Counted from the first letter of the stretch, positions 18,050-40,264 are shown. The stretch: DNA of 64,000 bases from Ahrensia marina (GCF_001293565.1 NZ_JXMU01000001.1:1-64000); one strand, 5' to 3'. The notes: generated by a model from the letters alone, not told the origin. Program-made: numbers and translations.

Positions 18050-18064
18050 ACTATCCGGTTAGCC

Positions 18065-19965: not shown

Positions 19966-20029
19966 ATTATTGCTCCACGTCTGTGCGCTAAAATTAACAA
20001 ATAAGTTCAGCGCACAAACAGAATTACCT

Positions 20030-20659
20030 TTAGTTGACGATATTCGCCTGCGTTGCTGCACGAAGTTCATCTTCGCTCACACCATCAGCAGTTTCAACGA
20101 TTTTCAGACCGCCATCAACAACATCAAGCACACCAAGATTAGTGATGATGCGATCGACAACGCCCGTTCCGGTAAGCGGAAGCGTGCATTCTTTGAGCAA
20201 TTTTGAATCGCCATGCTTGTTGGTGTGGTCCATCACGACAACAACCCGTCCGACACCGGCAACAAGGTCCATCGCGCCGCCCATGCCTTTGACCAGCTTG
20301 CCCGGAATCATCCAATTGGCCAAATCACCGTTCTCGGCCACCTCCATGGCCCCAAGAATAGCCATAGCGATTTTGCCGCCGCGGATCATGCCGAAAGATG
20401 TCGCACTGTCAAAATAGGCGGTATGCGGTAGTTCGGTAATTGTCTGCTTGCCGGCATTGATCAGATCGGGATCAATGTTTTCTTCCGTCGGAAACGGTCC
20501 CATGCCAAGCATGCCGTTCTCTGACTGAAGCGTGACTTCAACGCCTTCAGGAATATAATTGGCAACCATGGTCGGAATACCAATACCGAGATTGACGTAT
20601 GTACCGTCTTCAAGTTCCTGTGCTGCACGGGCAGCCATTTGATTTCTGTCCCAAGCCAT
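20030..20659 (-). CDS. scoB: 3-oxoacid CoA-transferase, subunit B
   Basis: 209 residues, full length for the B subunit. It has [17 protein letters not shown] and the catalytic glutamate in [14 protein letters not shown], plus [20 protein letters not shown] and [20 protein letters not shown]. With subunit A it transfers CoA from succinyl-CoA to acetoacetate or a related short-chain acid. It starts 3 nt after the scoA stop. The location between xsc-pta and the TRAP genes is suggestive, but no published sulfonate route needs this enzyme, so it may serve acetoacetate use or convert a carboxylate brought in by the TRAP system. Confidence 0.9.
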
Positions 20660-20662
20660 TGA

Positions 20663-21358
20663 TCAAGCCTCCCGTACTGTGCGTTGTTCTATGCGTTTTT
20701 CATGCTCACCTTGAATAAGGCGGTGAACATAAATGCCCGGCAGATGAATGTGGTCAGGATCAAGTGAGCCCACAGGCACAATCTCTTCCACTTCCAGCAC
20801 GCAGGTTTTGCCGCACATCGCGGCAGGTGGATTAAAGTTTCGCGCGGTCTTGCGGAAAATTGCATTTCCAGTTTCATCCGCCTTCCAAGCTTTGACTATT
20901 GAAAGGTCGGCAAAAATGCCTTCTTCCATGATGTAAGTTTCGCCGCCAAAATCCTTGTGTTCTTTACCTTCGGCGATCACTGTGCCCACACCTGTTTTGG
21001 TATAAAAGCCAGGGATACCTGCGCCGCCGGCACGCATACGCTCTGCCAAAGTTCCCTGAGGATTGAATTCCAGCTCAAGCTCGCCGGAAAGATATTGGCG
21101 CATAAACTCCGCGTTTTCGCCAACATAGGACGAAATCATTTTCTTCACCTGTTTGGTTTGAAGAAGGATGCCGATACCAAATTGATCAACGCCAGCATTG
21201 TTTGATGCAAAAGTAAGATCTTTGGTACCCGCTTCCTTAATGGCCTGTAGCAGCAATTCGGGAATACCACACAAGCCAAAGCCGCCAGCAGCAATGAACA
21301 TTCCATCATGCAACAGGCCTTCCAAGGCAGATGCTGCATTCGGATAAATCTTCTTCAT
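20663..21358 (-). CDS. scoA: 3-oxoacid CoA-transferase, subunit A
   Basis: 231 residues from the ATG at 21358 (GGAGG-TTCTG-ATG); the ATG at 21370 lies upstream of that SD. Subunit A landmarks: [19 protein letters not shown] (CoA-binding GGFG), [51 protein letters not shown] and [25 protein letters not shown]. It forms the heteromeric SCOT-type enzyme with scoB. It begins a leftward unit scoA-scoB-dctQ-dctM. The upstream 490 nt are gene-free on both strands apart from the Gly-rich gene promoter. Confidence 0.9.
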
Positions 21359-21850
21359 CAGAACCTCCACACTTGCCGCACTCTCAGGGCGGCTTCTGCT
21401 AGTGTTTGACTTTGCACTGCAGCATTTGTCAAGCGTAGCAAGATGCCGACCTGAGTTGTCCGCAAAAAGCTGAATTTCAATTCTGGGAAGTCGTGAGCAG
21501 AAAACCTACCCGCGTAGCGGGCGCGCGCTTGCCTATTTTGCAACCAAACACAAGGCCTAAGATGCATCAATCAGGAGGTCCAAGGCACAAAAAGCGCAAA
21601 TTGGTACATTTTTTGAGGAAATGGATTCTCAAAATGAAACGGATTCAGAGGCATTTTAATTAAATGCCGCCGTTACGGATAAAGCTGCGTAATCATAGGG
21701 TTAACGGAAAACGACTGGAAAATACGGCATTACAACCGACGACACGTAAAATTTGACCCTTTAGGTTGCCTTTTATTATCTACGCAACCTAGGGTTTTAT
21801 AAATATGTCTTTCTTACAGTTCAATCTCCTACGCAACAGAGGAGAGTATT
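21359..21850. other. Intergenic region between scoA and the Gly-rich protein gene
   Basis: 492 nt. Nearest the right end is a likely promoter for the Gly-rich gene with repeated GCAAC motifs (annotated separately). A loose inverted repeat TTGAG-N10-CTCAA at 21613-21632 resembles the sulfonate operator but has the wrong spacing. The rest shows no credible gene; short minus-strand frames near 21570 lack SDs. No structured RNA is recognised. Confidence 0.45.
21753..21837 (+). promoter_or_regulatory. Predicted promoter and repeat-type operator of the Gly-rich protein gene
   Basis: TTGACC (21753-21758) and TTATCT (21776-21781) are spaced 17 nt, giving a plausible sigma-70 promoter. A 7-bp inverted repeat AGGTTGC (21763-21769) / GCAACCT (21784-21790) overlaps the spacer, the -10 element and the start region. 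CTACGCAAC occurs twice as a direct repeat at 21780-21788 and 21829-21837. The second copy lies just before the GGAG SD. The arrangement resembles a multi-site operator, but the regulator is unknown. Confidence 0.45.
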
Positions 21851-22492
21851 ATGTTTGAATTGAGTAATTTTACGAAACGATCACTTGGGCTGATTTGCGG
21901 AACTTTTATGGCAACGGCTCTTATAAGCAGCCCCGTTAACGCCGGTAGCCTCTTGGGAGGCGGAGACGGAAAAGGCGTATCAATTGGCGGATCAAACGGT
22001 ATTTCAGTTGGCACAAATAATAATGGCGGTGGCGGCCTTGGTGTCGGCGTAAGTGTTGGCGGCAGCAGCGGCGTAAACGCCGGTGCGAGCGTCGGCGGCA
22101 GTAGCGGCGTCAATGCCGGCGCAAGCGTCGGCGGCAGCAGCGGTGTCAACGCCAGTGCAAGTGTCGGCGGCAGTAGCGGTGGCATCAATGCAGGCGCCAA
22201 TGTTGGCGGCGGTAGTGGCCTTAATGCCAATGTAGGTATCGGCGGCAACAAAGGAATTGATGTCGACGTTAGCTTGGGCCATCCAACAACGAAAACTCCT
22301 ACAACAAAAAACCCTACGGATCCATCAGGAAAAATCCCGGGGAACTGGAGCAAAAAAACACGCGACATGTTTGCAAACATGAGTTCACGCGACATGAATC
22401 AATTGTTGAAAGACTGCCGTACTATTTTGAACTCACCACGAAACCATCCAGCCAAGGCTGTGCGTCTGTGCAGACTTGCCATTCAACTCTAA
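21851..22492 (+). CDS. Secreted glycine-rich repeat protein of unknown function
   Basis: 213 residues with GGAG upstream of the ATG. A Sec signal peptide spans about residues 1-31 (ends SSPVNAG). Residues 32-130 are Gly/Ser/Asn/Val-rich and contain five tandem copies of a 12-13 residue unit (GGSSGVNAGASV and variants; GGSSGGINAGANV and GGGSGLNANVGI at the end). Then come a Thr/Pro/Lys linker (PTTKTPTTKNPTDPSGKIPG) and a compact basic C-terminal domain of about 55 residues with two cysteines (LKDC, VRLC). The alternating Gly/Val/Asn pattern suits a beta-rich, possibly fibrous or solenoid surface protein. I do not recognise a family. It is followed by a terminator, so it is monocistronic. Confidence 0.8.
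   Translation: MFELSNFTKRSLGLICGTFMATALISSPVNAGSLLGGGDGKGVSIGGSNGISVGTNNNGGGGLGVGVSVGGSSGVNAGASVGGSSGVNAGASVGGSSGVNASASVGGSSGGINAGANVGGGSGLNANVGIGGNKGIDVDVSLGHPTTKTPTTKNPTDPSGKIPGNWSKKTRDMFANMSSRDMNQLLKDCRTILNSPRNHPAKAVRLCRLAIQL
22058..22240 (+). repeat. Tandem 36-39 bp coding repeats, five copies
   Basis: In-frame repeats at about 22058, 22094, 22130, 22166 (39 nt) and 22205 encode GGSSGVNAGASV-type units. Third-position differences between copies show the repeats are not very recent. Such arrays can expand or contract by slippage, so copy number may vary between strains. Confidence 0.85.
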
Positions 22493-22843: not shown

Positions 22844-24625
22844 ATGAAGATGACAACGGAAGAGGCTTTTGTAAAAGTATTGCAAATGCATGGCATCGAC
22901 AATGCATTTGGCATCATCGGCTCTGCCATGATGGCTATCTCTGATCTTTTTCCGAAAGCTGGAATTAAGTTTTGGGATTGTGCCCATGAAACCAACGCCG
23001 GCATGACGGCAGATGGTTACACGCGCTCATCCGGCAAAATGTCTATGATGATTGCCCAGAACGGCCCAGGCATCACAAACTTTGTCACGCCTGTAAAAAC
23101 GGCATATTGGAACCATACTCCCCTTCTATTGGTGACTCCTCAAGCTGCTAACAAAACAATTGGTCAGGGCGGTTTTCAGGAAATCGAGCAAATGAAACTG
23201 TTCGAAGACATGGTTTGCTATCAGGAAGAAGTACGTGACCCTTCCCGCATGGCGGAAGTGCTTAACCGTGTGATTGAAAAAGCATGGCGCGGCTCAGCTC
23301 CGGCACAAATCAACGTGCCGCGCGATTACTGGACACAAGTTATTGACATTGAATTGCCGCAGATTGTTCGCCTAGAACGTCCCCGCGGCGGCGAGCAGGC
23401 AATTACCGAAGCAGCTAAATTGCTTTCAGACGCTAAATTTCCCGTCATTTTAAATGGTGCCGGCGTTATTCTGGCTGGCGGCATTCCGGCATCTGTAGAC
23501 TTGGCTGAAAAATTGTCAGCACCTGTTTGTTGCGGCTACCAGCACAATGACGCTTTCCCGGGCTCACACCCCCTATCTGTTGGCCCGCTTGGCTATAACG
23601 GCTCCAAAGCCGCTATGGAGCTGATTTCAAAAGCCGATGTCGTCTTGTGTCTTGGCACGCGCCTCAACCCATTTTCGACCCTGCCGGGCTACGGCATCGA
23701 TTATTGGCCAAAAGACGCAAAAATTATTCAGGTGGATATGAATTCCGACCGTATCGGCCTTACCAAGAAAGTGACCGTTGGTATTCAGGGCGACGCAAAA
23801 CTGGTTGCAGAGCAAATTCTGGAAAAACTGTCACCAAGTGCAGGCGACGAAGGCCGCAAGGACCGCGAAGCAACCATTGCACAGACTAAATCAGCATGGT
23901 TGCAACAATTGTCTTCAATGGATCATGAAGACGATGATCCGGGCACAACTTGGAACGAGCGCGCACGCAACCGCGAACCGGAACGCATGTCACCGCGCAT
24001 GGCATGGCGGGCTATTCAGGCGGCAATGCCAAAAGATGCAATTATCTCCTCTGATATCGGCAACAATTGTGCGATCGGTAACGCCTATCCGACGTTCGAA
24101 AAAGGCCGCAAATATCTGGCTCCTGGTCTGTTTGGACCATGCGGTTATGGCTTCCCTGCCATTCTTGGTGCGAAAATCGCCAATCCGGATACGCCGGTCA
24201 TCGGCTTTGCCGGCGATGGCGCTTTCGGTATCTCCATGAACGAGATGACCGCATGCGGCCGTAATGACTGGAAACCGATCACCATGGTCATTTTCCGCAA
24301 CTACCAATGGGGCGCTGAAAAGCGCAATACAACCCTTTGGTTCGACGACAATTTCGTCGGAACAGAGCTGAACCTTGGCGTGGAGTATGCAAAAATTGCC
24401 GAAGGTTGCGGTGTTAAGGGTGTGCAGGTCACAACGATGGAAGATTTAACCAAAGCACTGGACGACGCGATTGAAGGCCAGATGAAGCGCAACGAAACAA
24501 CATTCATTGAAGTTGTGCTTAATCAGGAGCTTGGCGAACCATTCCGCCGCGATGCCATGAAAAAACCGGTCTCCGTCGCAGGTATCAATCCAAACGACAT
24601 GCGCCCTCAACAAGCCGCTGAGTAA
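22844..24625 (+). CDS. xsc: Sulfoacetaldehyde acetyltransferase
   Basis: 593 residues, full length, with GGAGG 9 nt before the ATG. It is a ThDP enzyme with the Xsc signature N-terminus (ALQ-type PYR domain with CAHETNAGMTADGYTRSSGK and QNGPGITNFVTPVKTAYWNHTPLL), a central Rossmann domain, and the cofactor motif GDGAFGISMNEM near residue 455 followed by FRNYQWGAEKRN. Xsc converts sulfoacetaldehyde and phosphate to acetyl phosphate and sulfite in the cytoplasm. It is where the DHPS/sulfolactate, taurine and isethionate routes meet. The gene is preceded by a strong predicted promoter with operator site B and followed by pta. Confidence 0.95.
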   Translation: MKMTTEEAFVKVLQMHGIDNAFGIIGSAMMAISDLFPKAGIKFWDCAHETNAGMTADGYTRSSGKMSMMIAQNGPGITNFVTPVKTAYWNHTPLLLVTPQAANKTIGQGGFQEIEQMKLFEDMVCYQEEVRDPSRMAEVLNRVIEKAWRGSAPAQINVPRDYWTQVIDIELPQIVRLERPRGGEQAITEAAKLLSDAKFPVILNGAGVILAGGIPASVDLAEKLSAPVCCGYQHNDAFPGSHPLSVGPLGYNGSKAAMELISKADVVLCLGTRLNPFSTLPGYGIDYWPKDAKIIQVDMNSDRIGLTKKVTVGIQGDAKLVAEQILEKLSPSAGDEGRKDREATIAQTKSAWLQQLSSMDHEDDDPGTTWNERARNREPERMSPRMAWRAIQAAMPKDAIISSDIGNNCAIGNAYPTFEKGRKYLAPGLFGPCGYGFPAILGAKIANPDTPVIGFAGDGAFGISMNEMTACGRNDWKPITMVIFRNYQWGAEKRNTTLWFDDNFVGTELNLGVEYAKIAEGCGVKGVQVTTMEDLTKALDDAIEGQMKRNETTFIEVVLNQELGEPFRRDAMKKPVSVAGINPNDMRPQQAAE

Positions 24626-24714: not shown

Positions 24715-24734
24715 ATGTGAACTGTGAGAAATAC

Positions 24735-25730
24735 ATGCATGATCCGCTAAAGCCTATCTATGCCGCTGCAAAATCTGTACGCCGACATATTGTGCTCAGC
24801 GAAGGTCTTGACCCGCGCATCATTGATGGCGCGGCAGCGGCAATCAAACAGGAACTTGCCGCCATAACTCTCCTCGGCAACAAGGAGATCGTCGCCACGG
24901 CGATTGAAGCGCGCGGGCACAATGCATCGGATTTCAACCTGATTGATCCGGCAGATACACAGCACCACGAAGCTTATGCCAGCGGTTATTATGAACTGCG
25001 AAAAAACAAAGGCATATCCAAAGAATTTGCCCATGAAGGCATGAAAGTCCCGCTTAACTTTGCGGCCATGATGGTACGTCTTGGCGATGCGGACGGTACT
25101 GTCTCGGGCGCAGTTGCCACAACTGCGGATACGGTGCGTGCTGCACTGCAAATCATCAGAAAAGCGCCCGATGCCGCATTGGTTTCCAGCTTTTTTCTTA
25201 TGGTGCTGAATCAGGACCATCACACAAAAAAGGGCGTTTTCGTCTTTGCGGATTGCGGGCTGACAATTGATCCCGATGCGGTTCAGCTTGCAGAAATCGC
25301 GATTGCTTCAGCAGGTTCATATATTGCGCTAACCGGCAATGAACCTAAAATCGGCATGCTATCTTTTTCAACAATGGGCAGCGCCCGCCATGACAAGGTA
25401 AGCAAAGTTCAAAATGCAACAAAGCTGATACGCGAAAGATTGCCCGATCTGACTGTTTCCGGTGAGTTGCAATTTGATGCCGCTTTCCTGCCTGCTGTGG
25501 CACAGTCCAAAGCGCCGGATGATGATGTGAAAGGCGATGCCAACATCTTTGTTTTTCCGAATTTGGATGCGGGAAATATCGGCTATAAAATTGCCCAGCG
25601 CATCGGCGGCGCACAGGCGATAGGCCCCATTCTTCAAGGCCTTTCAAAACCGGCCAATGATTTGTCACGCGGCTGTTCTGCTCAAGATGTAACCAATATG
25701 ATCGCGATCACCGCCGCGCAGGTAAAATGA
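24735..25730 (+). CDS. pta: Phosphate acetyltransferase
   Basis: 331 residues from the ATG at 24735 (MHDPLKPIYAAAKS); a GTG at 24717 would add six residues, and the SD is weak for both. It is the short class with only the PTA_PTB domain: RHIVLSEGLDPRIIDGA, DADGTVSGAVATTADTVRAAL, KIGMLSFSTMGSARHDKVSKV and GELQFDAAFLPAVA, ending VFPNLDAGNIGYKIAQRIGGAQAIGPILQGL. It converts the acetyl phosphate from Xsc to acetyl-CoA. This pairing with xsc is standard in sulfonate degraders. The stop codon lies inside the left arm of a bidirectional terminator hairpin. Confidence 0.93.
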   Translation: MHDPLKPIYAAAKSVRRHIVLSEGLDPRIIDGAAAAIKQELAAITLLGNKEIVATAIEARGHNASDFNLIDPADTQHHEAYASGYYELRKNKGISKEFAHEGMKVPLNFAAMMVRLGDADGTVSGAVATTADTVRAALQIIRKAPDAALVSSFFLMVLNQDHHTKKGVFVFADCGLTIDPDAVQLAEIAIASAGSYIALTGNEPKIGMLSFSTMGSARHDKVSKVQNATKLIRERLPDLTVSGELQFDAAFLPAVAQSKAPDDDVKGDANIFVFPNLDAGNIGYKIAQRIGGAQAIGPILQGLSKPANDLSRGCSAQDVTNMIAITAAQVK

Positions 25731-25771: not shown

Positions 25772-28231
25772 TTACACCTTCACACGCTCGGATTTAGGAT
25801 CATACATAGGCTTCATCGAAGCCTCGGCTTCAAACCGCTGGCCTGCAATTTCAATCTCGAATTTTGAAGCCAGCATATCTGCCATAGACTGGCCCTTACA
25901 CGGCACATAACCAAGTCCGACAGCCGCCCCTAATGTATGTCCGTAATTAGCCGAAGTGATATAGGATACGATTTTCCCGTCCTGTACAATCGGTTCATGA
26001 TGATACATGAGCGGCAACGGGTCTTTGAGCGCGAACTGCACAAGACGCATATCCAGTCCTTGTTCTTTTTTACGCAGAACCGCATCGCGGCCAACGAAGC
26101 TTTCCTTTGCTGTTTTGACTGCGAAACCAAGACCCGCTTCCAACACATGGTCCTCACCAGTTATATCGTGTCCAAAATGGCGAAACGCTTTTTCGATGCG
26201 CAATGAATCCATCATGTGCATACCGCAAAGCTTCAGATTCATATCCTGGCCAGCCTCAAACAGTGTCTCGAAAACATGCGCTGCCATATCGGTTGAAACA
26301 TAAAGCTCCCACCCTAGTTCGCCGACATAGGTGACACGGTGTGCACGCGCCAGCCCCATACCAATCTCAACATCCCTCGCCTGACCGAAAGGATGATTGT
26401 CATTCGTCCAGTCATGGTTTGATACAAGCTCCAGAAGACGGCGTGAATTCGGCCCCATAACGGCAAGCACCGCTTCAGCGGATGTCGCGTCAAAAATGAG
26501 CGCTTGAAAGTTGCCCAAATGACGGCGCATCCAATGCATTTCGCGCTGAACCGTTGCGGCCGGTGTCACGACAATATAGCTGTTTTCAGCCAGTCGCGTA
26601 ACAGTAACATCTGCCTCGATACCGCCGCGCTTATTGAGAAACTGTGTATAGGTGATTTTGCCGACCGGCACATCAACATCATTGCCGCAAACATAATTGA
26701 GAAAGGCGCAGGCATCGCGTCCCTCAACACGTATTTTACCGAACGACGTCATATCGTACATGCCGACATTTTCGCGCACGGCACGGTGCTCTTCGGCAGC
26801 GTTTTGAAACCAGTTCTGACGCTTCCATGAATATTTATATTCAGGTTCCTGATCAGCATTGGCAAACCAGTTTGCCCGCTCCCATCCGGCAACCTCACCG
26901 AACACAGCACCCCGTTCCTTTAAATGGGCATGAAACGGAGAACGGCGCACACCCCGCGCGGTTGCCATCTGGCGATAGGGAAAATGATCAGCATAAAGCA
27001 AACCCAAACTTTCCTTGGCCCGCTCAAACAAATATGTCTTATTGTTCTGGAACGGCTGCATACGCCGTATATCAACGTCGCCCAAATCAAAAGGCGGCAA
27101 GCCTTTATCCATCCATTCTGCGAGCGCCCAACCTGCACCGCCGGAGGATTGAATGCCAATCGAATTAAAGCCCGCCATAATAAAGAAGTTTTTCAAATTG
27201 GGCGCTTCACCAAGATGATAAGCGTCATCTGGTGTAAAACTCTCCGGCCCATTGAAGAAAGTATGAATACCGGCATCGGCAAGCACGGGTACGCGTTCAA
27301 CCGCCATTTCCAAAATTGGTTCAAAATGGTCAAAATCTTCCGGTAATTGATCGAACTCAAAATCCTGACTGATGCCGTTCATCCCCCAAGGCTTGGATTC
27401 TGGCTCGAACGCACCGAGCAAAATCTTGCCTGCATCTTCTTTGTAATAGGCGCATTCATCCGGTACCCGCAGAACAGGCATCTGCTTAAGATCAGGGATA
27501 TTTTCCGTAACGATATAGAAATGCTCGCAGGCATGAAGCGGAACGCTGACATCCGCCATTTCGCCAATATCACGCGCCCACATACCGCCGCAGTTGACCA
27601 CAAAATCAGCGTCGATCATGCCGCTTTCTTCTGAACCGTCGCGCTGCCATGACACACCGCTAACACGGTCGCCATCGACGTGGATTTCGGTCACTTTCAT
27701 ACGCTCGAATATGTGCGCGCCGTTCATTTTAGCACCTTTAGCCAGCGCCAGTGCGATATTTGCCGGATCGCCCTGCCCGTCTTTTGGCAAATAAACACCA
27801 CCTTTAACGCCGTCGAGATTGATGTGCGGATAACGCTCTTTGACTTGCGCCGGTGTGATTTCTTCGACATCAACACCAAAAGCCCGCGCCATGGACGCCT
27901 GACGGGTAATTTCCTCCAGTCGTTCATCGGTTAAAGCCACTGTTATCGAGCCGCAGCGTCTGAAGCCGGTAGCGACACCGGTTTCCTCTTCCAGCTTGCC
28001 ATAGAGTTCCTGACTGTACTTGGCGAGGCGGGTCATGTTTTTCGAAGAGCGGAGTTGTGCAATCAAACCGGCTGCGTGCCACGTCGTCCCCGATGTTAAT
28101 TGCTTGCGCTCAAGCAAAACAACATCCTTCCATCCAAGCTTGGCAAGATGATAGGCAACAGAACATCCTGCAACACCGCCTCCAATAATGACGGCCCGTG
28201 CTTTCGACGGTGGAGTTTTCATGTCAGTCAT
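25772..28231 (-). CDS. FAD-dependent N-methyl dehydrogenase with GcvT domain (dimethylglycine/sarcosine dehydrogenase-like), paralogue 1
   Basis: 819 residues. The N-terminal DAO-type FAD domain has AVIIGGGVAGCSVAYHL and SGTTWHAAGLIAQL; the His in TWHAAG corresponds to the covalent FAD attachment site of mammalian dimethylglycine dehydrogenase. A middle FAO_M domain (about 385-445) is followed by a GcvT/aminomethyltransferase domain (about 450-810: MYDMTSFGKIRVEGRDA, YTQFLNKRGGIEADVTV, GELGWELYV). Such enzymes oxidise an N-methyl group and pass the C1 unit to tetrahydrofolate. It is the last gene of an XRE-led unit lying between xsc-pta and tauABC, so an N-methylated sulfonate substrate is possible. 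A glycine-betaine catabolic role is the conventional alternative. Confidence 0.85.
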   Translation of the reverse strand: MTDMKTPPSKARAVIIGGGVAGCSVAYHLAKLGWKDVVLLERKQLTSGTTWHAAGLIAQLRSSKNMTRLAKYSQELYGKLEEETGVATGFRRCGSITVALTDERLEEITRQASMARAFGVDVEEITPAQVKERYPHINLDGVKGGVYLPKDGQGDPANIALALAKGAKMNGAHIFERMKVTEIHVDGDRVSGVSWQRDGSEESGMIDADFVVNCGGMWARDIGEMADVSVPLHACEHFYIVTENIPDLKQMPVLRVPDECAYYKEDAGKILLGAFEPESKPWGMNGISQDFEFDQLPEDFDHFEPILEMAVERVPVLADAGIHTFFNGPESFTPDDAYHLGEAPNLKNFFIMAGFNSIGIQSSGGAGWALAEWMDKGLPPFDLGDVDIRRMQPFQNNKTYLFERAKESLGLLYADHFPYRQMATARGVRRSPFHAHLKERGAVFGEVAGWERANWFANADQEPEYKYSWKRQNWFQNAAEEHRAVRENVGMYDMTSFGKIRVEGRDACAFLNYVCGNDVDVPVGKITYTQFLNKRGGIEADVTVTRLAENSYIVVTPAATVQREMHWMRRHLGNFQALIFDATSAEAVLAVMGPNSRRLLELVSNHDWTNDNHPFGQARDVEIGMGLARAHRVTYVGELGWELYVSTDMAAHVFETLFEAGQDMNLKLCGMHMMDSLRIEKAFRHFGHDITGEDHVLEAGLGFAVKTAKESFVGRDAVLRKKEQGLDMRLVQFALKDPLPLMYHHEPIVQDGKIVSYITSANYGHTLGAAVGLGYVPCKGQSMADMLASKFEIEIAGQRFEAEASMKPMYDPKSERVKV

Positions 28232-28282
28232 GGGTTTATTCCCGCACTAGAGGCATTGATCAAGGCGTAAGGGCGCGCGCTT

Positions 28283-30730
28283 TTAAGCGCGAAGCCGTTC
28301 GTTTTTCGGGTCCCATAGCGGCCAGTCAGGCTGCACCTCGGCTTTGTATTTCTTCCCGAATATCCCGATTTGAAGTTTCGTACCGGGCTCGGCCAAGTCT
28401 GCCCGCACAACACCCAATGCGATCGACGTATTGGTGCGGTATCCGAACCCGCCCGATGTCACTTCACCGACAATTTTGCCATTATGGAATATGCTCGACA
28501 TGTACGGCGCATCGCAATCACCGGCGTTTACAGACATGGTCACGAAGCGCTTGGCAGGGCCGTTTTCCAACTCCGCCTTTAACTGGGCCTTGCCCGGAAA
28601 ATCCTGCGGCTTGTCAATGCGGATGAAGCGCTCCAACCCACCTTCCACCAGCGAGTAATCAGTCGATAAATCACCTTTCCAGGCACGGTAGCCTTTTTCC
28701 AGCCTCATCGAACCAAGTGCATACATGCCGAATGGCTGTGCGCCCGCTTTAATCACCGCGTCATAAAGAGCGGGAATATTCGCCATACGGGCGTGTATTT
28801 CCCACCCAAGCTCTCCAGCAAAAGACACACGGGCCAATTTGCATTCCACACCTGCCACTGTGGCCGTTTGATGCGTCAGCCAGCCAAGTGACAGATCCGC
28901 ATCTGTACCCATTTCTTCAAACAATGCGCGTGACTTCGGACCCGTCACGATCAGGGTCGAAAATGCATCCGTCAAATCAGTGAGCGTTAAGTTTTCAGGC
29001 AGATTTTTATTCAGCACATCAAAATCATGCCATTGTGCCGGTGCTGCGGTGATGAGCGTGAAATCGTCTTCCTCATGACGAATGATCGACATTTCCGTTA
29101 AAATGCGCCCGCGGCTATCAGGAAAATATCCAAGCGTCATGCGCCCTGCTTTTGGCAAAGCGCCAGCGATCATCCCGCGCAAATATTCCGCCGCGCCTTC
29201 TCCGGCAAGGTGATAGCGCGAAAAGCCCGGCAAATCCAAAACACCGACATTGTCGCGAACCGCTTCAACTTCTTGCCTGATACGCTTTTCCCAAGGGCCG
29301 CCGCGCGACCAGGTTTGTGTCGCTTCTTCGCTGGTATCATCGCCTTCTTGCGCAAACCAATTGGCGCGCTCCCAGCCATTATAGGCGCCCATCTGACCGC
29401 CTGCCGCGACGATTTTATCGTGGACTGGCGATAGCTTTTTATTGCGTCCGGCAGGCCATTCATGGTGCGGAAAGTGCATTGCATATTCATGGCCATATGT
29501 TTCCAGCGCCTTTTGCAGGCAGAAGTCATGATCGGCATGTGCAGTATAGCGACGCGGATCAACCGACCACATATCGCTTTCGGTTTCGCCGTAAATAATC
29601 CACTCGGCCATCACTTTGCCCGCACCGCCGCCCTGCGCGATGCCGAAGGTAAATGAATGGGCTTCAAAGGCGTTTTTAACGCCGGGCATAGGACCAATCA
29701 TTGGTAATCCGTCCGGCGCATAGGGAATAGGTCCGTTGATAACACGCTCGACGCCTGCTGTACCCAGAGTCGGCACACGGCCCATCGCATCTTCGATATA
29801 CCATTCAAGACGCTCTAAATCGTCCGGATAAAGCTGGAATGAAAAATCATCCGGCATCGGATCTTCCGGCGTAATCCAGTGAGCCCTGCAATTGCGCTCA
29901 TAGGGACCAAGATTGAGACCGTTCTTGTCCTGACGCAGATAATAAGATGAATCCACATCGCGGATCATAGGCGTTTTGCGCCGGTTTTCCTTTGTCCAGG
30001 CTTCAATCTCCGGAATTTCTCCGGTAAGAAAATATTGGTGGCTCATCACAATTTGCGGAACAGTGCGTCCGCCAAACGGTTTGAACCATTCGCCGATACG
30101 CTGGGCATAATAGCCGCCAGCGTTCACAACATATTCGCACCGAATATCGCCTTTTTCTGTGTGGACGATCCACTCATCGCCATCGCGCGAAACGCCTGTT
30201 GCCGGACAAAAGCGCTGAATATTGCCGCCCATCTGGCGCGCACCTTTCGCAAGCGCCTGAGTAAGCTGTGCAGGATCGATATCACCGTCAAGCGGATCCC
30301 AAAGGCCACCGGCAAGATCATGTGTTTCCATAAAGGGATTATGTGACTGCAACTCCTGCGGTGTGCAGATATCCATTTCCAACCCCTGATGACGGGCCTG
30401 CGCGGCCACCTTCTCAAATTCCATCATCCGCTCTTTTGTATGCGCAAGCCGCAGAGCGCCGGTCACATGGTAATTCATTGGATAGTCGACATCATCGGCA
30501 AGCGTCCGATACATCGCCAGACCATAGCGCTGCATGTTCATCACCGCCCAATTAGGAGCGAAATTCGGGCAATTGCCGGCTGCATGCCATGTTGAGCCTG
30601 CGGTCAGCTCGTTCTTTTCAAGAAGCACACAGTCTTTCCATCCCACTTTGCCCAGATGAAAAAGCGTGGACACGCCAACGACACCGCCACCAATAATGAC
30701 CACACGCGCGGTTGAGGGAAGCTTGCTCAT
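28283..30730 (-). CDS. FAD-dependent N-methyl dehydrogenase with GcvT domain, paralogue 2
   Basis: 815 residues from the ATG at 30730 (GGAGAGAATT-ATG). It has the same architecture as the gene after it: VVIIGGGVVGVSTLFHL, the covalent-flavin type AGSTWHAAGNCPNF, an FAO_M domain, and a C-terminal GcvT domain (VLDLPGFSRYHLAGEGA, GELGWEIHARM, GMYALGSMRLEKGYRAWKGD). The two are clearly diverged (different loops around residues 90-130 and in the GcvT part), which suggests successive demethylations or two substrates rather than a recent duplication. It starts 31 nt after the XRE-cupin gene, and 51 nt separate it from the second paralogue, so all three appear co-transcribed. Confidence 0.85.
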   Translation of the reverse strand: MSKLPSTARVVIIGGGVVGVSTLFHLGKVGWKDCVLLEKNELTAGSTWHAAGNCPNFAPNWAVMNMQRYGLAMYRTLADDVDYPMNYHVTGALRLAHTKERMMEFEKVAAQARHQGLEMDICTPQELQSHNPFMETHDLAGGLWDPLDGDIDPAQLTQALAKGARQMGGNIQRFCPATGVSRDGDEWIVHTEKGDIRCEYVVNAGGYYAQRIGEWFKPFGGRTVPQIVMSHQYFLTGEIPEIEAWTKENRRKTPMIRDVDSSYYLRQDKNGLNLGPYERNCRAHWITPEDPMPDDFSFQLYPDDLERLEWYIEDAMGRVPTLGTAGVERVINGPIPYAPDGLPMIGPMPGVKNAFEAHSFTFGIAQGGGAGKVMAEWIIYGETESDMWSVDPRRYTAHADHDFCLQKALETYGHEYAMHFPHHEWPAGRNKKLSPVHDKIVAAGGQMGAYNGWERANWFAQEGDDTSEEATQTWSRGGPWEKRIRQEVEAVRDNVGVLDLPGFSRYHLAGEGAAEYLRGMIAGALPKAGRMTLGYFPDSRGRILTEMSIIRHEEDDFTLITAAPAQWHDFDVLNKNLPENLTLTDLTDAFSTLIVTGPKSRALFEEMGTDADLSLGWLTHQTATVAGVECKLARVSFAGELGWEIHARMANIPALYDAVIKAGAQPFGMYALGSMRLEKGYRAWKGDLSTDYSLVEGGLERFIRIDKPQDFPGKAQLKAELENGPAKRFVTMSVNAGDCDAPYMSSIFHNGKIVGEVTSGGFGYRTNTSIALGVVRADLAEPGTKLQIGIFGKKYKAEVQPDWPLWDPKNERLRA

Positions 30731-30761
30731 AATTCTCTCCAAAATTTTCGCTAAGGTGACT

Positions 30762-31355
30762 TCAGTAAACGGGCGGAGAAATCACCCACACTGCTACCGC
30801 TGGCTCATCGCCGTCATTGGACCATTGGTATTTTTCATTCTGAAATTGAAAACTGTCACCGGCGTTGAGCACGAATCTGCGGTCACGAAACGCCAAGGTA
30901 AGCTTGCCGGATATTAAATAACCGGCCTCTTGCGTAGGCCGCGCCTTGATCCATGCGCTCTGGCTATGTGGCTCAAATGTTGAGTGAATGATCTCGAAAT
31001 CACCTGATAAATCAGGCGAAAGAAGCTGCTCTACCAACCCGTCCTGCCGGTTGCCAAAGGATGCACGTGCACCTTTGCGAACAACAAAACCACGCTCGGC
31101 TTCATCGGCCAACTCGTTCCTGAACAGGAATGAGACCGGTATTTCAAAAATTTCTGCGAGCGATCGGATATCGGGAATACTCGGATCGGTCTGACCGCGT
31201 TCGACCTGACTGAGCCAGCCAATCGACCGGCTTAGTTTTTCAGCCAATTCCATGATTGTCATGTTTCGCGCTTTTCGCAAAGCCCGCACATCATCGCCAA
31301 TATGGTGCCGGACTTCAGCGGCCTTCTCTATGGACAGTTTGGAATCATCAACCAT
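30762..31355 (-). CDS. XRE-family regulator with C-terminal cupin domain
   Basis: 197 residues from the ATG at 31355 with AAGG 8 nt upstream. The helix-turn-helix (about residues 15-75) reads VRALRKARNMTIMELAEKLSRSIGWLSQVERGQTDPSIPDIRSLAEIF. The cupin domain (about 115-195) includes SAWIKARPTQEAGYLISGKLTLAFRDRRFVLNAGDSFQF. XRE-cupin proteins sense small metabolites, often amines or amino acids, and control adjacent catabolic genes. It heads the unit with the two FAD/GcvT dehydrogenases and is divergent from tauR. A perfect 9-bp inverted repeat abuts its SD, suggesting autorepression. Confidence 0.88.
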   Translation of the reverse strand: MVDDSKLSIEKAAEVRHHIGDDVRALRKARNMTIMELAEKLSRSIGWLSQVERGQTDPSIPDIRSLAEIFEIPVSFLFRNELADEAERGFVVRKGARASFGNRQDGLVEQLLSPDLSGDFEIIHSTFEPHSQSAWIKARPTQEAGYLISGKLTLAFRDRRFVLNAGDSFQFQNEKYQWSNDGDEPAVAVWVISPPVY

Positions 31356-31367
31356 GTCTATTGCCTT

Positions 31368-31396
31368 AAATGAAATTTTTCTCCATAATTTCATTT
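31368..31396. promoter_or_regulatory. Inverted repeat AAATGAAAT-N11-ATTTCATTT before the XRE-cupin gene
   Basis: A perfect 9-bp inverted repeat (31368-31376 and 31388-31396) touches the SD of the XRE-cupin gene (31364-31367), so a bound protein would block leader transcription or translation initiation. Likely an autoregulatory operator of the XRE-cupin protein. The related ATTTCATTT element appears again within operator site C at 31480. Confidence 0.5.
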
Positions 31397-31468
31397 ATTC
31401 GAAAAATTGCAACAAATATTTCAACACGGTTACAGATAGCGAAAGCATCGCTTACTTCAATCGATAAA

Positions 31469-31485
31469 TGAGACAAAAAGTTTCA
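31469..31485. promoter_or_regulatory. Operator site C, TGAGAC-N5-GTTTCA, between XRE-cupin and tauR
   Basis: TGAGAC-AAAAA-GTTTCA, one mismatch from the palindrome; counting flanks, the arms are AAATGAGAC and GTTTCATTT (8 of 9 paired). It lies 6 nt upstream of a possible tauR -35 TTGCGA (31492-31497), spaced 17 nt from TGATAA (31515-31520), so it could serve an activator or control the divergent XRE unit. Together with sites A and B it shares the T-rich tail after GTYTCA. Confidence 0.55.
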
Positions 31486-31567
31486 TTTATTTTGCGAATG
31501 GGGCCAGTATCACTTGATAACTAGACCAGATGGACGCATAATAAAGCACTAGGAAAGGTGCCGAAAA

Positions 31568-33097
31568 ATGAGATACAGCCTGTTTCATGTTGAACGCCAA
31601 GACACGATGTCTTTGCAGTCGCAAATACGTGAGATGCTTGTATCCGCAATGATTGCCGGCCAGCTGCCGGCCAACTCTCCCGTCCCTTCGACACGCGCTA
31701 TGGCCAAGCGGCTGAAAGTATCGCGCAATACTGTTATGCTCGCCTATCAGGCACTGGCGGCAGACGGTTTTCTTGTCGCGCGGGAACGATCCGGCTTTTA
31801 CGTGGCGCCGGATGTTCAGGCTGCCCCGAAACCGAAATTGCAAAATACGTCAAGCCGCCCCGTAGAAGCCACGACACCCGTAAATTGGGATGAAAAACTG
31901 CGTCTGCGTCCGGCTTCGCAGATCAACATTTCAAAGCCTGAAAACTGGCACGATTATAAATATCCATTTATTTATGGACAGGTAGACCCGAAGCTTTTCC
32001 CGATAAGCGCCTGGCGTGACTGCATGCGCCAGACCATGAGTTTAAAATGGCTGGACGCATGGACAGACGACAGGTTTAGCGCCGATGATCCGATGCTTGT
32101 CGAACAGATTCAGCAACGTGTTTTAACCCGCCGCGGTGTTATGGCGCGTTCGAACGAAATATTGATCACGATGGGCGCTCAGAATGCGCTTTTCCTTCTC
32201 GCGCATTTGTTTGTGCGTGAGGACACACCGGTCGCGGTTGAAGATCCCGGCTATCCGGATATTCGCAATATGTTTGAACTGCGTTCCAATGATGTGCGGC
32301 GGATTCCGGTCGATGACGAGGGTATTTGCGTCGATCAGCTAGGCGATGCAAAGCTTGTTTTCGTTACACCAAGCCACCAGTTTCCAACAAATGTGACCAT
32401 GAGCATGAAGCGCCGCCGTCAATTGCTCGCGTGGGCCAATGAGAACGATGCCCTCATCATCGAAGATGATTATGAGTACGAGACCAATTATCGGGGAGAG
32501 CCAACACCGGCGCTCAAATCCCTTGATACCAGTGGCCGCGTGTTGCATGTCGGCAGTCTTTCAAAATCAATGATGCCGGGGCTGCGCATGGGCTTTGTCG
32601 TTGCCTCTGCAGATGTGATTGCTGAAATCAGGGCATTGCGCCGGTTAATGCTGCGCCATCCACCGGGCAATAACCAGCGCGTTGTTGCGCTTTTCCTTTC
32701 GCTTGGCGGCCACGATGCGCTCATTAACCGCCTGCACCGCACTTATTTGAAGCGATGGGAAATAATAAATCTAGCGCTTGCCGACTATTTTCCGGGATGG
32801 TCACACACACCTGCATTTGGCGGGACGTCATTTTGGGTTGAAGGACCACGCGGTTTCGACGCTGTGCAACTGGCAACAGAAGCGATCAAAGACGGCATTT
32901 TGATCGAACCGGGCGATATATTTTTCGCTGATAGCGAGAACCATAAAAATTATTTCCGTCTCGGCTTCTCATCTATTCCCGACGAGCGAATCGAAGAAGG
33001 CATAAGGCTGTTGGCAAAACGGGCGACACTATTACTCGGCACCACACCTGCCGAAGCAACACGCAGTGCATCGATCACAACATTTGCTGCCGAATAA
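31568..33097 (+). CDS. tauR: MocR-type (GntR plus aminotransferase fold) regulator, probable TauR
   Basis: 509 residues with AAGG 9 nt before the ATG. A GntR winged helix (about 15-80: LPANSPVPSTRAMAKRLKVSRNTVMLAYQAL) is linked to a class I aminotransferase-like domain with AYQ..GDP-type PLP site elements: EDPGYPDIRN, VTPSHQFPTN, EDDYEYE and SLSKSMMPGLRMGF, with the PLP-binding Lys near residue 331. MocR proteins of this type (TauR) activate taurine genes. It is directly followed by tauABC on the same strand after its own terminator, which supports the assignment. PdxR and GabR are family alternatives, but no matching target genes are present. Confidence 0.82.
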   Translation: MRYSLFHVERQDTMSLQSQIREMLVSAMIAGQLPANSPVPSTRAMAKRLKVSRNTVMLAYQALAADGFLVARERSGFYVAPDVQAAPKPKLQNTSSRPVEATTPVNWDEKLRLRPASQINISKPENWHDYKYPFIYGQVDPKLFPISAWRDCMRQTMSLKWLDAWTDDRFSADDPMLVEQIQQRVLTRRGVMARSNEILITMGAQNALFLLAHLFVREDTPVAVEDPGYPDIRNMFELRSNDVRRIPVDDEGICVDQLGDAKLVFVTPSHQFPTNVTMSMKRRRQLLAWANENDALIIEDDYEYETNYRGEPTPALKSLDTSGRVLHVGSLSKSMMPGLRMGFVVASADVIAEIRALRRLMLRHPPGNNQRVVALFLSLGGHDALINRLHRTYLKRWEIINLALADYFPGWSHTPAFGGTSFWVEGPRGFDAVQLATEAIKDGILIEPGDIFFADSENHKNYFRLGFSSIPDERIEEGIRLLAKRATLLLGTTPAEATRSASITTFAAE

Positions 33098-33133: not shown

Positions 33134-33221
33134 AAAAGCGTCCGGCCATGTGAAAATTCATGGTCTCTAATGACCGCTGGACTCATGCTGCTGTAAATTT
33201 TGGCGCTAGGCCCATACCGTA

Positions 33222-33372: not shown

Positions 33373-34371
33373 ATGACTTTAAGAAAACTCATCACTGGTC
33401 TAGCGGCAAGCGCTGCCGTTATCGTAACTGCGACAACTGCAGCAAACGCTCAAGACATTACAGTCGCCTATTTCGAGCAATGGCCGTTGCCGATGCTGGC
33501 TGCTAAAGCACAGGGCAAATATGAAGAAGCACTGGGCACAAATATCAACTTCCGCGCCTTTGAAACCGGTACAGCAATGTCAGCGGCAATGGCGTCTGGC
33601 GATGTACAATTCTCTGTCAGCCAGGGCGTTCCACCGTTTGTTGTTGCGGCCTCCGGCGGTCAGGACATTCAGGTTCTGGATGTTGCGGTAAGCTATTCAG
33701 ACAACGATAACTGTGTCGTATCTTCCTCGCTTGAAATCGATAAAAATTCGGCCTCGGAACTGGCAGGTAAAAAAGTTGCTGTTCCTCTCGGCACGGCCGC
33801 CCATTACGGCTTCCTGCGCCAGATGGACCATTTTGGTGTCGACCTAGCCTCTCTTGAAATTGTCGACATGGCACCACCGGAAGGCGCGGTTGCACTCAGC
33901 CAAGGCGATGTTGATTTCGCCTGCGGTTATGGCGGCGGCCTGACAAGCATGAAAGAACACGGCAATGTGCTTTTGACAGGCGCGGAAAAAGAAGAGCTTG
34001 GTATTCTTGTGTTCGACGTAACATCAGCGCCAGCCGCTTTTGTTGCTGAAAATGGCGACCTTGTTGCAAAATTCCTCGCCGTTACCGCCGAAGCGAACGC
34101 CGAATGGAATGCCAACCAGAGCGATGAAATGCTTCAGCTGATTGCAGAGCAATCCGGTATGGATGTGGATGCCACGAAAGCATCCATCTCAACCATGACA
34201 TTCCCAAGCGTTGAAGACCAGCTTTCTGACAAATGGCTCGGCGGCAATGCTGCGACCTTCATGAAGGGCGTAGCGGATGTGTTTGTTGAAGCAGGAAGCA
34301 TCGACAGTGCGCTCGACAGCTACGAAGGCGCTGTCAACGCTGGACCATTGGAAGCCGCAAGCAAAATGTAA
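33373..34371 (+). CDS. tauA: Taurine-type ABC transporter substrate-binding protein
   Basis: 332 residues with GGAGGA 6 nt before the ATG. The signal peptide ends near residue 26 (ANAQ). The mature protein follows the TauA/SsuA layout: ITVAYFEQWPLPML, FRAFETGTAMSAAMASGDVQFSVSQGVPPFVVAASGG, GKKVAVPLGTAAHYGFLRQM and ALSQGDVDFACGYGGGL. It captures an aliphatic sulfonate in the periplasm. The preceding tauR and following tauBC and soeABC support taurine or a close relative, but binding-site residues differ from E. coli TauA (for instance EQWPLP in place of TSAEPA near the N-terminus), so an N-methylated taurine or another sulfonate is possible. Confidence 0.85.
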   Translation: MTLRKLITGLAASAAVIVTATTAANAQDITVAYFEQWPLPMLAAKAQGKYEEALGTNINFRAFETGTAMSAAMASGDVQFSVSQGVPPFVVAASGGQDIQVLDVAVSYSDNDNCVVSSSLEIDKNSASELAGKKVAVPLGTAAHYGFLRQMDHFGVDLASLEIVDMAPPEGAVALSQGDVDFACGYGGGLTSMKEHGNVLLTGAEKEELGILVFDVTSAPAAFVAENGDLVAKFLAVTAEANAEWNANQSDEMLQLIAEQSGMDVDATKASISTMTFPSVEDQLSDKWLGGNAATFMKGVADVFVEAGSIDSALDSYEGAVNAGPLEAASKM

Positions 34372-34470: not shown

Positions 34471-35277
34471 ATGTCAGAACTTTCTATTGATAACATTTCG
34501 ATGCGCTTTGACCTGCCCGACGGGGGAGCGGTTCAGGCACTCAAAAATGTTTCGCTCGATCTAAAAAGCGGTGAATTGCTGAGTATTCTGGGGCCTTCAG
34601 GATGCGGCAAGACCACGCTCCTTAATATTGTGGCGGGCTTTCTTGCCCCAACCGATGGCGTCATGACGCTGAACGGTCACAAGATCGAAGGACCCGGCGC
34701 CGAACGCGGCATGGTGTTTCAGCAAGGTGCATTGTTTGAATGGATGAGCGTTCGCGAAAATGTGGGCTTTGGGCCATCCATGAAAGGGATGCCAAAGGGG
34801 GAAAAACAAAAGATTGTCGACCATCTGCTGGATGTTGTCGGCCTGAGAGATTTTAAAGAAAAAGCAGTTTATGAATTATCCGGCGGCATGCAGCAGCGCG
34901 TAGCGCTTGCGCGTTGCCTTGCCAATGATCCCGATGTCATTTTGATGGATGAACCATTAGGAGCGCTCGACGCTCTAACGCGCGAGAAAATGCAAAGTCT
35001 GGTTCTCAAACTCTGGAAAGAAACCGGCAAGACAATCATTCTAATCACACACTCCGTTGAGGAGGCCTTGCTGCTTGGCGAACGCTTGATTGTCATGGCA
35101 CCCCGTCCCGGCCGTATCCATAAAGAGTACAAATTACCATTTGCGGAACTTGGTGTTGATGCCGATTTACGCGAAGTAAAAAAGCATCCTGACTTCGGCC
35201 CTAAACGCGAAGAAATCCTCTCAATGATTTGGGACATGGAAGAAGAAATTATGGGACGCACGGAGGAAAACGCATGA
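34471..35277 (+). CDS. tauB: Taurine-type ABC transporter ATP-binding protein
   Basis: 268 residues with GAGGGGGA directly before the ATG. Walker A GPSGCGKTT near residue 41, Q-loop FQQGALFEWMSVREN, signature LSGGMQQRVALARCLA, Walker B VILMDEPLGALD and H-loop ILITHSVEEAL. Members of the TauB/SsuB group power uptake of sulfonates and related compounds. It is slightly longer than E. coli TauB (255) because of a C-terminal tail with KKHPDFGPKREEILSMIWDMEEEI. The permease gene overlaps its stop by 4 bases (ATGA). Confidence 0.92.
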   Translation: MSELSIDNISMRFDLPDGGAVQALKNVSLDLKSGELLSILGPSGCGKTTLLNIVAGFLAPTDGVMTLNGHKIEGPGAERGMVFQQGALFEWMSVRENVGFGPSMKGMPKGEKQKIVDHLLDVVGLRDFKEKAVYELSGGMQQRVALARCLANDPDVILMDEPLGALDALTREKMQSLVLKLWKETGKTIILITHSVEEALLLGERLIVMAPRPGRIHKEYKLPFAELGVDADLREVKKHPDFGPKREEILSMIWDMEEEIMGRTEENA

Positions 35278-36545
35278 GTGGTTTAATAGTTTTAGCAATT
35301 TATGTCGGGATTTTCGTTGCCGCTTATTTTGTCATCTCCAAAGTCGCAGCACAAACGACAAGTGACTACACGTCACTGAAAACCGTCACCTTTGGCGACG
35401 AAAGTGCGGTTCGTCCCAACCGGCTCGCCGGTATCATCTCCATTTTAACAATCTTCCTACTCTGGGGCATGTTTACCGGCTCATCATTGTTGCCGGGTTT
35501 CTTACACGCTCCCGCTCCCTTTAGCGGCGAAACATCTTTTGAATATACAGCCGAGGCAAACGGCCAAAGCGATACAGCAACAGTGACAGTTGTTGTTCAC
35601 CCGCGTGAGGAAAATCCAAGCTTGGAAGAACCGGCTGGCGGTGATGGCTTTGCCAAGAACGACATCATTTCAGTCGCTCAATGGCGCAGCAAGCTCGTCC
35701 AATGGGACAAAAATGACGACATTAAAAAGTCTGACGGCTCCACAATTACAGCCATCAATGGACAAAGCGTCGGCCCGGGTGACACAGTCGAAATAACCGG
35801 CGGCTCGGTCACCATCTCCGACAAAGGGACCCCCAATTTCAGGCCTTACAATGGCTGGCAGATGGAGCCGCTCTATTTGCCTGCACCTGAAACCGTGGTG
35901 GAAAGGACCTTCAAAGTGGCAAGCGAAGGCTTCCGCGGTACGTCCCTGCTTGGCCATTTGGGCTGGTCGTTGTTCAGGGTTGTTGCAGGCTTCCTTCTTG
36001 GTGCCCTCGTCGGTATTCCGCTCGGCTATGCGATGGGTCTTTCAAATTGGTTCCGTGGTTGGTTCGACCCGATTGTTGAGTTCATGCGACCGGTTCCGCC
36101 GCTTGCACTTATCCCGCTTGTCATCATTTGGGCCGGTATCGGTGAAGCTGGTAAGGTGATCCTGCTGTTCTTGGCTGCACTTTGGATCATGGCAATTGCT
36201 GCACGTGCCGGAGTATCCGGTGTGAACATTTCCAAAGTTCATGCGGCTTATTCGCTGGGTGCATCAAAATGGCAGATCATGCGATATGTCATCATTCCGA
36301 ACTCTCTGCCTGAAATTTTTACCGGTGCGCGCGTAGCAATGGGTGTCTGTTGGGGAACCGTCGTTGCTGCCGAACTGGTTGCAGCGGAAAAAGGTGCGGG
36401 CATGATGATTATGGTCGCCTCAAAGTTCCAGAATACCGATATTGTTCTTCTGGGCATTATTTTGATTGGTATTATCGGCTTTGGTATCGATATGCTGATG
36501 CGTGGCGCAGAAAGATATCTCGTTCCATGGAAAGGCCGGGGCTGA
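35274..36545 (+). CDS. tauC: Taurine-type ABC transporter permease with an extra Ig-like periplasmic domain
   Basis: 423 residues from the ATG at 35274 (GGAGG-N7-ATG, overlapping the tauB stop). Typical TauC/SsuC permeases have about 250-280 residues; the extra length is an N-terminal helix pair (about 2-22 and 51-70) and a soluble segment (about 75-200). Its SFEYTAEANGQSDTATVTVVV stretch resembles a cadherin/bacterial Ig-like beta strand pair. The conserved permease core starts at LPAPETVVERTF and includes the EAA loop (AHAAYSLGASKWQIMRYVIIPNSLPEIF region) and GTVVAAELVAAEKGAG. The extra domain may dock the receptor or sense ligand; that is inference. Confidence 0.85.
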   Translation: MSGLIVLAIYVGIFVAAYFVISKVAAQTTSDYTSLKTVTFGDESAVRPNRLAGIISILTIFLLWGMFTGSSLLPGFLHAPAPFSGETSFEYTAEANGQSDTATVTVVVHPREENPSLEEPAGGDGFAKNDIISVAQWRSKLVQWDKNDDIKKSDGSTITAINGQSVGPGDTVEITGGSVTISDKGTPNFRPYNGWQMEPLYLPAPETVVERTFKVASEGFRGTSLLGHLGWSLFRVVAGFLLGALVGIPLGYAMGLSNWFRGWFDPIVEFMRPVPPLALIPLVIIWAGIGEAGKVILLFLAALWIMAIAARAGVSGVNISKVHAAYSLGASKWQIMRYVIIPNSLPEIFTGARVAMGVCWGTVVAAELVAAEKGAGMMIMVASKFQNTDIVLLGIILIGIIGFGIDMLMRGAERYLVPWKGRG

Positions 36546-36558
36546 CAAACCCGCAGTT

Positions 36559-36577
36559 TTGAGACGTTCTGTCTCAA
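36559..36577. promoter_or_regulatory. Operator site D, perfect TTGAGAC-N5-GTCTCAA before soeA
   Basis: A perfect 7+7 palindrome TTGAGAC-GTTCT-GTCTCAA in the 112-nt gap between tauC and soeA. It is the best match of the four sites sharing TGAGAC-N5-GTCTCA. It suggests that soeABC can be controlled separately from tauABC and together with xsc and the iclR/hpsN region. Confidence 0.65.
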
Positions 36578-36612
36578 GATCACAGGAAACTGGCACTATC
36601 ATGCTTTTCATG

Positions 36613-36641
36613 CCCACCCTAAAAAGGGGTGGGTATTTTAT
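36613..36641 (+). terminator. Hairpin (terminator/attenuator) in the soeA leader
   Basis: CCCACCC (36613-36619), loop TAAAAAG, GGGTGGG (36627-36633), then TATTTTATT. It ends two nt before the AGGAGG SD of soeA. It may end tauC transcripts, attenuate soeA, or partly hide the SD. Confidence 0.6.
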
Positions 36642-36657
36642 TAGGAGGATTCTGTCT

Positions 36658-40253: not shown

Positions 40254-40264
40254 GGACAAACAAA

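Follow-up and report, generated by a model that had tools for sequence, protein, structure and literature searches.

Two FAD/GcvT dehydrogenases in a taurine gene block of Ahrensia marina: a candidate route for N-methylated taurines

Organization of the XRE-A-B locus

The window analyzed here, a 64,000-nucleotide stretch of Ahrensia marina DNA (GCF_001293565.1, NZ_JXMU01000001.1:1-64000), contains two genes for flavin-dependent dehydrogenases, A and B, which lie on the minus strand with an XRE-cupin regulator gene, between xsc-pta and tauR-tauABC-soeABC. Judged from their sequences, relatives and surroundings, A and B probably N-demethylate di- and monomethyltaurine oxidatively to taurine, passing the C1 units to tetrahydrofolate (THF). 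The features of the locus itself are as follows.

25772-28231, minus strand: B, FAD + FAO_M + GcvT dehydrogenase, sarcosine-dehydrogenase-like; intact open reading frame, 819 amino acids (aa)
28283-30727, minus strand: A, FAD + FAO_M + GcvT dehydrogenase, nearest to mammalian dimethylglycine dehydrogenase (DMGDH); 814 aa from the ATG at 30727
30762-31355, minus strand: XRE-cupin regulator, first gene of the operon, ahead of A and B
31369-31395, strand not assigned: operator 1, AATGAAATT-N9-AATTTCATT, immediately upstream of the XRE gene
31467-31487, strand not assigned: operator 2, AATGAGAC-N5-GTTTCATT

The A reading frame is intact and extends to 30742 (819 aa from a TTG), the likelier start being the ATG at 30727, which is preceded by the Shine-Dalgarno sequence GGAGAG. 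The frame of the regulator is readable from 31394, and its second Met, at 31355, is the apparent true start. Since the gaps between XRE and A and between A and B are short (about 35 and 51 bases), we read the three genes as a single operon.

Domains and catalytic residues of A and B

Both proteins carry DAO, FAO_M, GCV_T and GCV_T_C in a single chain of ~820 aa, far above the Pfam gathering scores, and both contain the covalent-flavin motif TWHAAG, which was invariant across ten orthologues of each. Full-length reading frames, the four domains and the motif thus bear out the initial annotation, which had described two enzymes of ~0.8k residues with the architecture of DMGDH and sarcosine dehydrogenase (SARDH). 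A and B share only about 32% identity, indicating old paralogues and no recent duplication.

Among solved relatives, mammalian DMGDH (PDB 4P9S/5L46) was the best match to A (539 bits, with Arthrobacter dimethylglycine oxidase, DMGO, PDB 1PJ5, at 256 bits), and B matched the two about equally (474 bits for DMGDH, 430 bits for DMGO). Alignments showed conservation of the amine-site catalytic His (SHQY in A, EHFY in B) and Tyr (SSYYLRQ in A, CAYYKED in B), which presumably correspond to DMGO His225 and Tyr259. The folate-site acid of the GcvT domain is likewise present, B retaining Asp at the position of DMGO Asp552 and A having Glu, like mammalian DMGDH. A and B therefore share domain order, flavin motif, His/Tyr pair and folate acid with mammalian DMGDH and SARDH; they have the same fold as DMGO but carry TWHAAG in place of its TSHAPG. 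As enzymes, A and B are of the known DMGDH/SARDH kind, and what is new would be their substrate and pathway. Unlike DMGDH and SARDH, many A/B orthologues lie amid genes for taurine transport, Tpa, Xsc and TauR, and their substrate is a prediction.

Co-occurrence with xsc

The initial annotation had asked whether the pair accompanies xsc across genomes, and it did so at the genome level, at the neighborhood level and after tree pairing. Among 61 relatives, 14 had both B (≥59%) and xsc, 6 had B only, 3 had xsc only and 38 had neither. The same association was found for A in 159 Rhodobacteraceae (both, 82; A only, 14; xsc only, 17; neither, 46), with an odds ratio of 15.8 and a p value of 7e-14 that carries no correction for kinship.

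Because every xsc genome among the 61 relatives also carried an MttB-family gene, we ran MtgB as a control; cobalamin-dependent glycine betaine demethylation is the work of MtgBCD (PMC12478193). Canonical MtgB was present in 143 of the 159 Rhodobacteraceae, including 50 of the 63 genomes lacking A, so that A is not required beside mtgB. Within MtgB-positive genomes the A-xsc odds ratio was 13. The odds ratio of A with mtgB was 8, below that with xsc, a difference that does not settle the substrate. In a case-control sample (120 genomes), with the MtgB protein tree standing in for a species tree, tree pairs differing in A had xsc changing in the same direction 17 times and in the opposite direction 1.5 times (median sign test, p 0.0004). 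Finally, 6 of 82 genomes had A and xsc no more than 10 kb apart, where 0.5 was expected.

Neighborhoods of A and B orthologues

We collected A/B orthologues at ≥60% identity from many alphaproteobacteria. Three contexts recurred: XRE-A-homocysteine methyltransferase-B, A-B with a distinct MttB-family gene, and taurine genes. The most complete taurine context is that of Paracoccus seriniphilus (L143), XRE-tauABC-cupin-A-B-ETFbeta-ETFalpha-FolD-PurU-xsc, which is fully equipped with C1 and electron-transfer genes. Roseibium album (L160) has tauABC / RoseAT-TauR-XRE-A-MttB-B-xsc-soeA, where RoseAT denotes a class III aminotransferase located beside tauABC and TauR; other arrangements are tauA / RoseAT-TauR-xsc-TauZ-XRE-A-MttB-BHMT-B (L378), RoseAT-TauR-xsc-XRE-A-B (L382), tauABC / RoseAT-TauR-XRE-A-B (L389) and tauABC-A-B (L383), with further taurine contexts at L379, L380 and L381. 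B also occurs in taurine operons with no A close by, as TauR / Tpa-tauABC-B (L082, L246) and TauR / Tpa-B (L083/L254). Two families have B without A, in a TauR/Tpa-tauABC operon or beside Tpa, and in a third A is only distant. This placement of B is telling for the monomethyl role proposed for it below.

Orthologues of A/B with taurine genes next to them occupy nine or more separate regions of their tree. The B tree required 13 changes in taurine linkage, of which supported branches force at least 9, and the A tree at least 12; this linkage has therefore been gained or lost repeatedly and marks no one clade. The initial annotation had named consistent association with betaine genes, and not with xsc, as the pattern that would speak against its proposal. 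That pattern was not seen, yet homocysteine-methyltransferase or MttB-type genes, not anticipated by the initial annotation, adjoin many of the orthologues and point, in those species, to a starting compound with three methyl groups. The nearest solved relative of the linked MttB-family protein is glycine betaine methyltransferase. In common with MtgBCD, many relatives have an MttB-superfamily protein, proposed to act on the first methyl group, linked to A/B; unlike MtgB, it belongs to a separate subfamily, about 27% identical to the MtgB of the window's genome (G000). A genome from the same genus as the window (G001, L038) has this type adjoining B, but G000 lacks it.

On Rhizobium and Agrobacterium plasmids (L146, L147), we also observed a module of XRE, a Pot-type ABC transporter, ETF beta and alpha, A, B and purU that holds no sulfonate genes; at L146 it also carries a class III aminotransferase.

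A conserved operator at the regulator gene

An XRE homologue adjoins A in most loci. The pattern AATGARA-N-TTTCATT occurred in the whole window only at 31369-31395 and 31467-31487 (0.01 expected). Both sites are confined to the gap between XRE and tauR, with none ahead of xsc or tauA. Other genera have the same site (TGAAA-N13-TTTCA), often twice, ahead of the XRE gene or of A/B. It accompanied taurine neighbors (L066, L068, L074, L143, L160, L389), homocysteine-methyltransferase neighbors (L149, L168, L183, L187, L385) and, in Paracoccus denitrificans and P. yeei (L144, L148), a solitary B. Since the site is common to taurine-linked and other loci, one regulator seems to serve the module in every context. 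The shared operator ascribed to the XRE promoter region is thus present twice in the window and conserved at the same regulator in many genera.

The sulfonate block and the taurine pathway of the genome

The flanks of XRE-A-B hold xsc, pta, a TauR-type regulator, tauABC and Soe-like genes, in agreement with the sulfonate block in which the initial annotation had placed the regulator and the two enzymes:

22844-24625, plus strand: xsc, sulfoacetaldehyde acetyltransferase (TIGR03457, 952 bits against a cut-off of 676)
24717-25730, plus strand: pta, phosphate acetyltransferase
31521-31539, plus strand: pair of direct repeats, CTAGACCAGA and ATGGACGCAT, akin to degenerate TauR boxes (weak match), upstream of tauR
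31568-33097, plus strand: MocR-type regulator, probable TauR, divergent from XRE-A-B; neighbors tpa, tauABC and xsc in relatives
33373-34371, plus strand: TauA-like substrate-binding protein (TIGR01729 match below cut-off)
34471-35277, plus strand: TauB-like ATPase
35274-36545, plus strand: TauC-like permease with a long N-terminal extension
36502-41179 (36502-39513, 39501-40253, 40265-41179), plus strand: SoeABC-like sulfite dehydrogenase of the molybdopterin oxidoreductase family, named from homology and context

The TauA-like protein scored 152 bits against the taurine equivalog cut-off of 304, making taurine a putative specificity of the transport system. A search for TauR boxes (consensus CTGGACYTAA; PMC5320631) yielded a single box at 33177 besides the weak repeats at 31521-31539, and the regulator gene is present.

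The block shares xsc, pta, tauR and tauABC with the known taurine dissimilation route, TauR-TauABC-Tpa/TauXY-Xsc-Pta. That route begins at unmethylated taurine, whereas A and B are proposed as extra steps upstream of it. A search of G000 for TauXY orthologues found none (the best match to TauY was 31%), and no orthologue of the L082-type Tpa was found there. G000 does encode a class III aminotransferase (G000:C6:116357-117613) that is 70% identical to the Roseibium taurine-cluster aminotransferase and 69-78% identical to other taurine-linked copies. Having found this second Tpa-type homologue, we dropped the view that G000 is without any Tpa. TauR-regulated genes of some Rhodobacterales include a Tpa-related aminotransferase and a COG665 oxidoreductase (PMC5320631).

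Several other features of the genome and the window were noted. The C6 aminotransferase adjoins a DAO-family oxidase with 29% identity to TauY (G000:C6:115000-117700, L397). Outside the block, G000 also carries an mtgB, a further DMGDH-like gene and an operon for sarcosine oxidase. A third DMGDH-like protein (G000:C1:138423-141056; L233:2423-5056) has 877 aa and matches DAO, FAO_M and GCV_T, with no GCV_T_C match; its gene is followed by a 554-aa reading frame with no Pfam match, and mtgB and a RACo-type activator lie within 15 kb. The TauC reading frame has 438 residues against 275 in Shinella TauC, the ~160 extra residues preceding the permease domain, and the long form is also present in several relatives with linked A/B. 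Near xsc are a histidinol-dehydrogenase-family gene, HpsN-like by context (16712-18049, plus strand), a TRAP transporter (18065-20070, minus strand) and a two-subunit CoA-transferase (20030-21370, minus strand); 16712-21370 is possibly a second sulfonate block. The reading frame at 21851-22492 (plus strand) encodes a glycine-rich, secreted-looking protein built of repeated GASVGGSSGVNA units. Downstream of soeABC, 41224-43301 holds a DUF1989-like gene and a gene for a urate hydroxylase-like membrane protein with a C-terminal cytochrome c motif.

A proposed pathway for methylated taurines

In DMGDH and DMGO, an N-methyl group is oxidized to an iminium and the folate domain yields 5,10-methylene-THF. 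We infer the substrates, enzyme order, electron acceptor, inducer and direction of control of the pathway proposed here, in which XRE-A-B would be an operon for the use of N-methylated taurines. N,N-dimethyltaurine would be oxidized by A at one of its N-methyl groups, and N-methyltaurine by B at its single one, an assignment suggested by the occurrence of B alone with Tpa and by the resemblance of A to DMGDH. The fused GcvT domain would move the iminium methylene onto THF, giving 5,10-methylene-THF, and the flavin electrons would pass to electron-transfer flavoprotein (ETF). Taurine would then be converted to sulfoacetaldehyde, probably by the C6 class III aminotransferase, and sulfoacetaldehyde to acetyl-CoA by Xsc and Pta, with SoeABC oxidizing the sulfite. 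Control of the operon would be exerted by the XRE-cupin protein at the AATGAAA...TTTCATT sites.

Several relatives carry in addition a gene of the MttB-like or homocysteine-methyltransferase type, which may take the first methyl group off N,N,N-trimethyltaurine, these added genes suggesting that the natural substrate may be trimethyltaurine. As G000 has no linked MttB, A. marina may be limited to di- and monomethyltaurine, or may rely on a different enzyme to begin the pathway. More tentatively, and with doubt prevailing, the XRE-A-(MttB or homocysteine methyltransferase)-B module of ~60% of Rhodobacteraceae could be a trimethyl-, dimethyl- and monomethyltaurine pathway feeding Tpa and Xsc.

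Glycine betaine and other alternatives

The main rival is that A and B are ordinary dimethylglycine (DMG) and sarcosine dehydrogenases of glycine betaine catabolism, their position among taurine genes reflecting a tendency of osmolyte-catabolic genes to cluster and to move jointly. The closest solved relative of A, mammalian DMGDH, fits this explanation, and the PF02574, MttB-type or GbcA-like Rieske genes adjoining A/B in many relatives would suit the first step of betaine use. Ruegeria pomeroyi genes at probable orthologous positions bear the corresponding names, Lidbury et al. 2015 giving SPO3400 as the DMG and SPO3396 as the sarcosine dehydrogenase (PMC4744692), and proteins predicted for these two steps, their genes unnamed in the main text, rise on glycine betaine in this organism (PMC12478193). 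In Ruegeria halocynthiae (L187) three genes separate A from B, which fits the numbering of SPO3400 and SPO3396, and gene spacing suggests that these two genes are A and B.

Several further observations count, with those from R. pomeroyi, against a role in methyltaurine use. Annotation assigns the A/B family to DMG and sarcosine dehydrogenases. The trees of A and B were examined for a clade specific to taurine-linked loci, and none was found. Only 6 of 94 loci had a taurine gene within 10 kb of A, A orthologues are common (96 of the 159 Rhodobacteraceae), and in Mesorhizobium A/B stand beside sarcosine oxidase in the absence of xsc. Restricting the paired test to well-supported branches left 12 pairs, 5.7 against 1.3, which is not significant, and the association of A with xsc could reflect a shared osmolyte-using lifestyle or habitat.

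We nevertheless consider the betaine explanation unlikely, at perhaps half the weight of the one we prefer. A tracks xsc strongly, far beyond mtgB; mtgB persists in most genomes that lack A; G000 has a separate mtgB, other DMGDH-like gene and sarcosine oxidase operon; and B keeps company with Tpa or tauABC where A is missing or distant. The names of the R. pomeroyi dehydrogenases, moreover, rest on homology.

That A and B are broad osmolyte N-demethylases acting on methylated glycines and taurines, with local neighbors deciding their use, is a still weaker candidate. Near-identical proteins do occur with BHMT-like, MttB, Rieske, sarcosine-oxidase or taurine neighbors, and no taurine-only clade separates them, but the family-wide correlation with xsc exceeds what use decided neighbor by neighbor predicts.

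Least probable is a B that, as an N-methyltaurine dehydrogenase, cleaves the ethyl side to give methylamine and sulfoacetaldehyde directly, as is described for Paracoccus versutus and Alcaligenes faecalis: it would account for the lack of Tpa and TauXY in the sulfonate block, but the GcvT fusion, in which the acid is conserved, and the FolD and PurU genes beside A/B in P. seriniphilus point to transfer of C1 to THF, and G000 has the aminotransferase homologue. In the N-methyltaurine dissimilation attributed to Weinitschke et al. 2006, the ethyl-side C-N bond is reportedly cut and methylamine released; the proposed substrate and the sulfoacetaldehyde product are the same as here, whereas in our scheme the methyl group would pass to THF.

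Of the stepwise demethylation put forward by the initial annotation, the connection with taurine metabolism is supported by co-occurrence with xsc and by clustering, while sequence does not suffice to settle which substrates the enzymes use, and glycine betaine derivatives are an alternative. Taken together, these results make the use of methylated taurines, widened to trimethyltaurine in relatives, the best-supported single explanation and one somewhat better than an even bet, with glycine betaine as its main rival.

Implications for marine sulfonate metabolism

Methylated taurines are reported from red algae, as osmolytes, and from marine animals. In the open-access literature we found no pathway for the catabolism of dimethyl-, methyl- or trimethyltaurine, and no bacterial genes assigned to methyltaurine demethylation. 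The red alga Galaxaura rugosa is reported to contain all three compounds, mono-, di- and trimethyltaurine (PMC10538540), so that the substrates exist in the sea. If the proposal is true, a widespread marine enzyme pair is annotated with the wrong substrate, and markers of glycine betaine use built on such dehydrogenases could be counting the wrong process. SPO3400 and SPO3396 of R. pomeroyi would need renaming if the module is a methyltaurine pathway, and a second sulfur-containing osmolyte would enter the marine sulfonate cycle.

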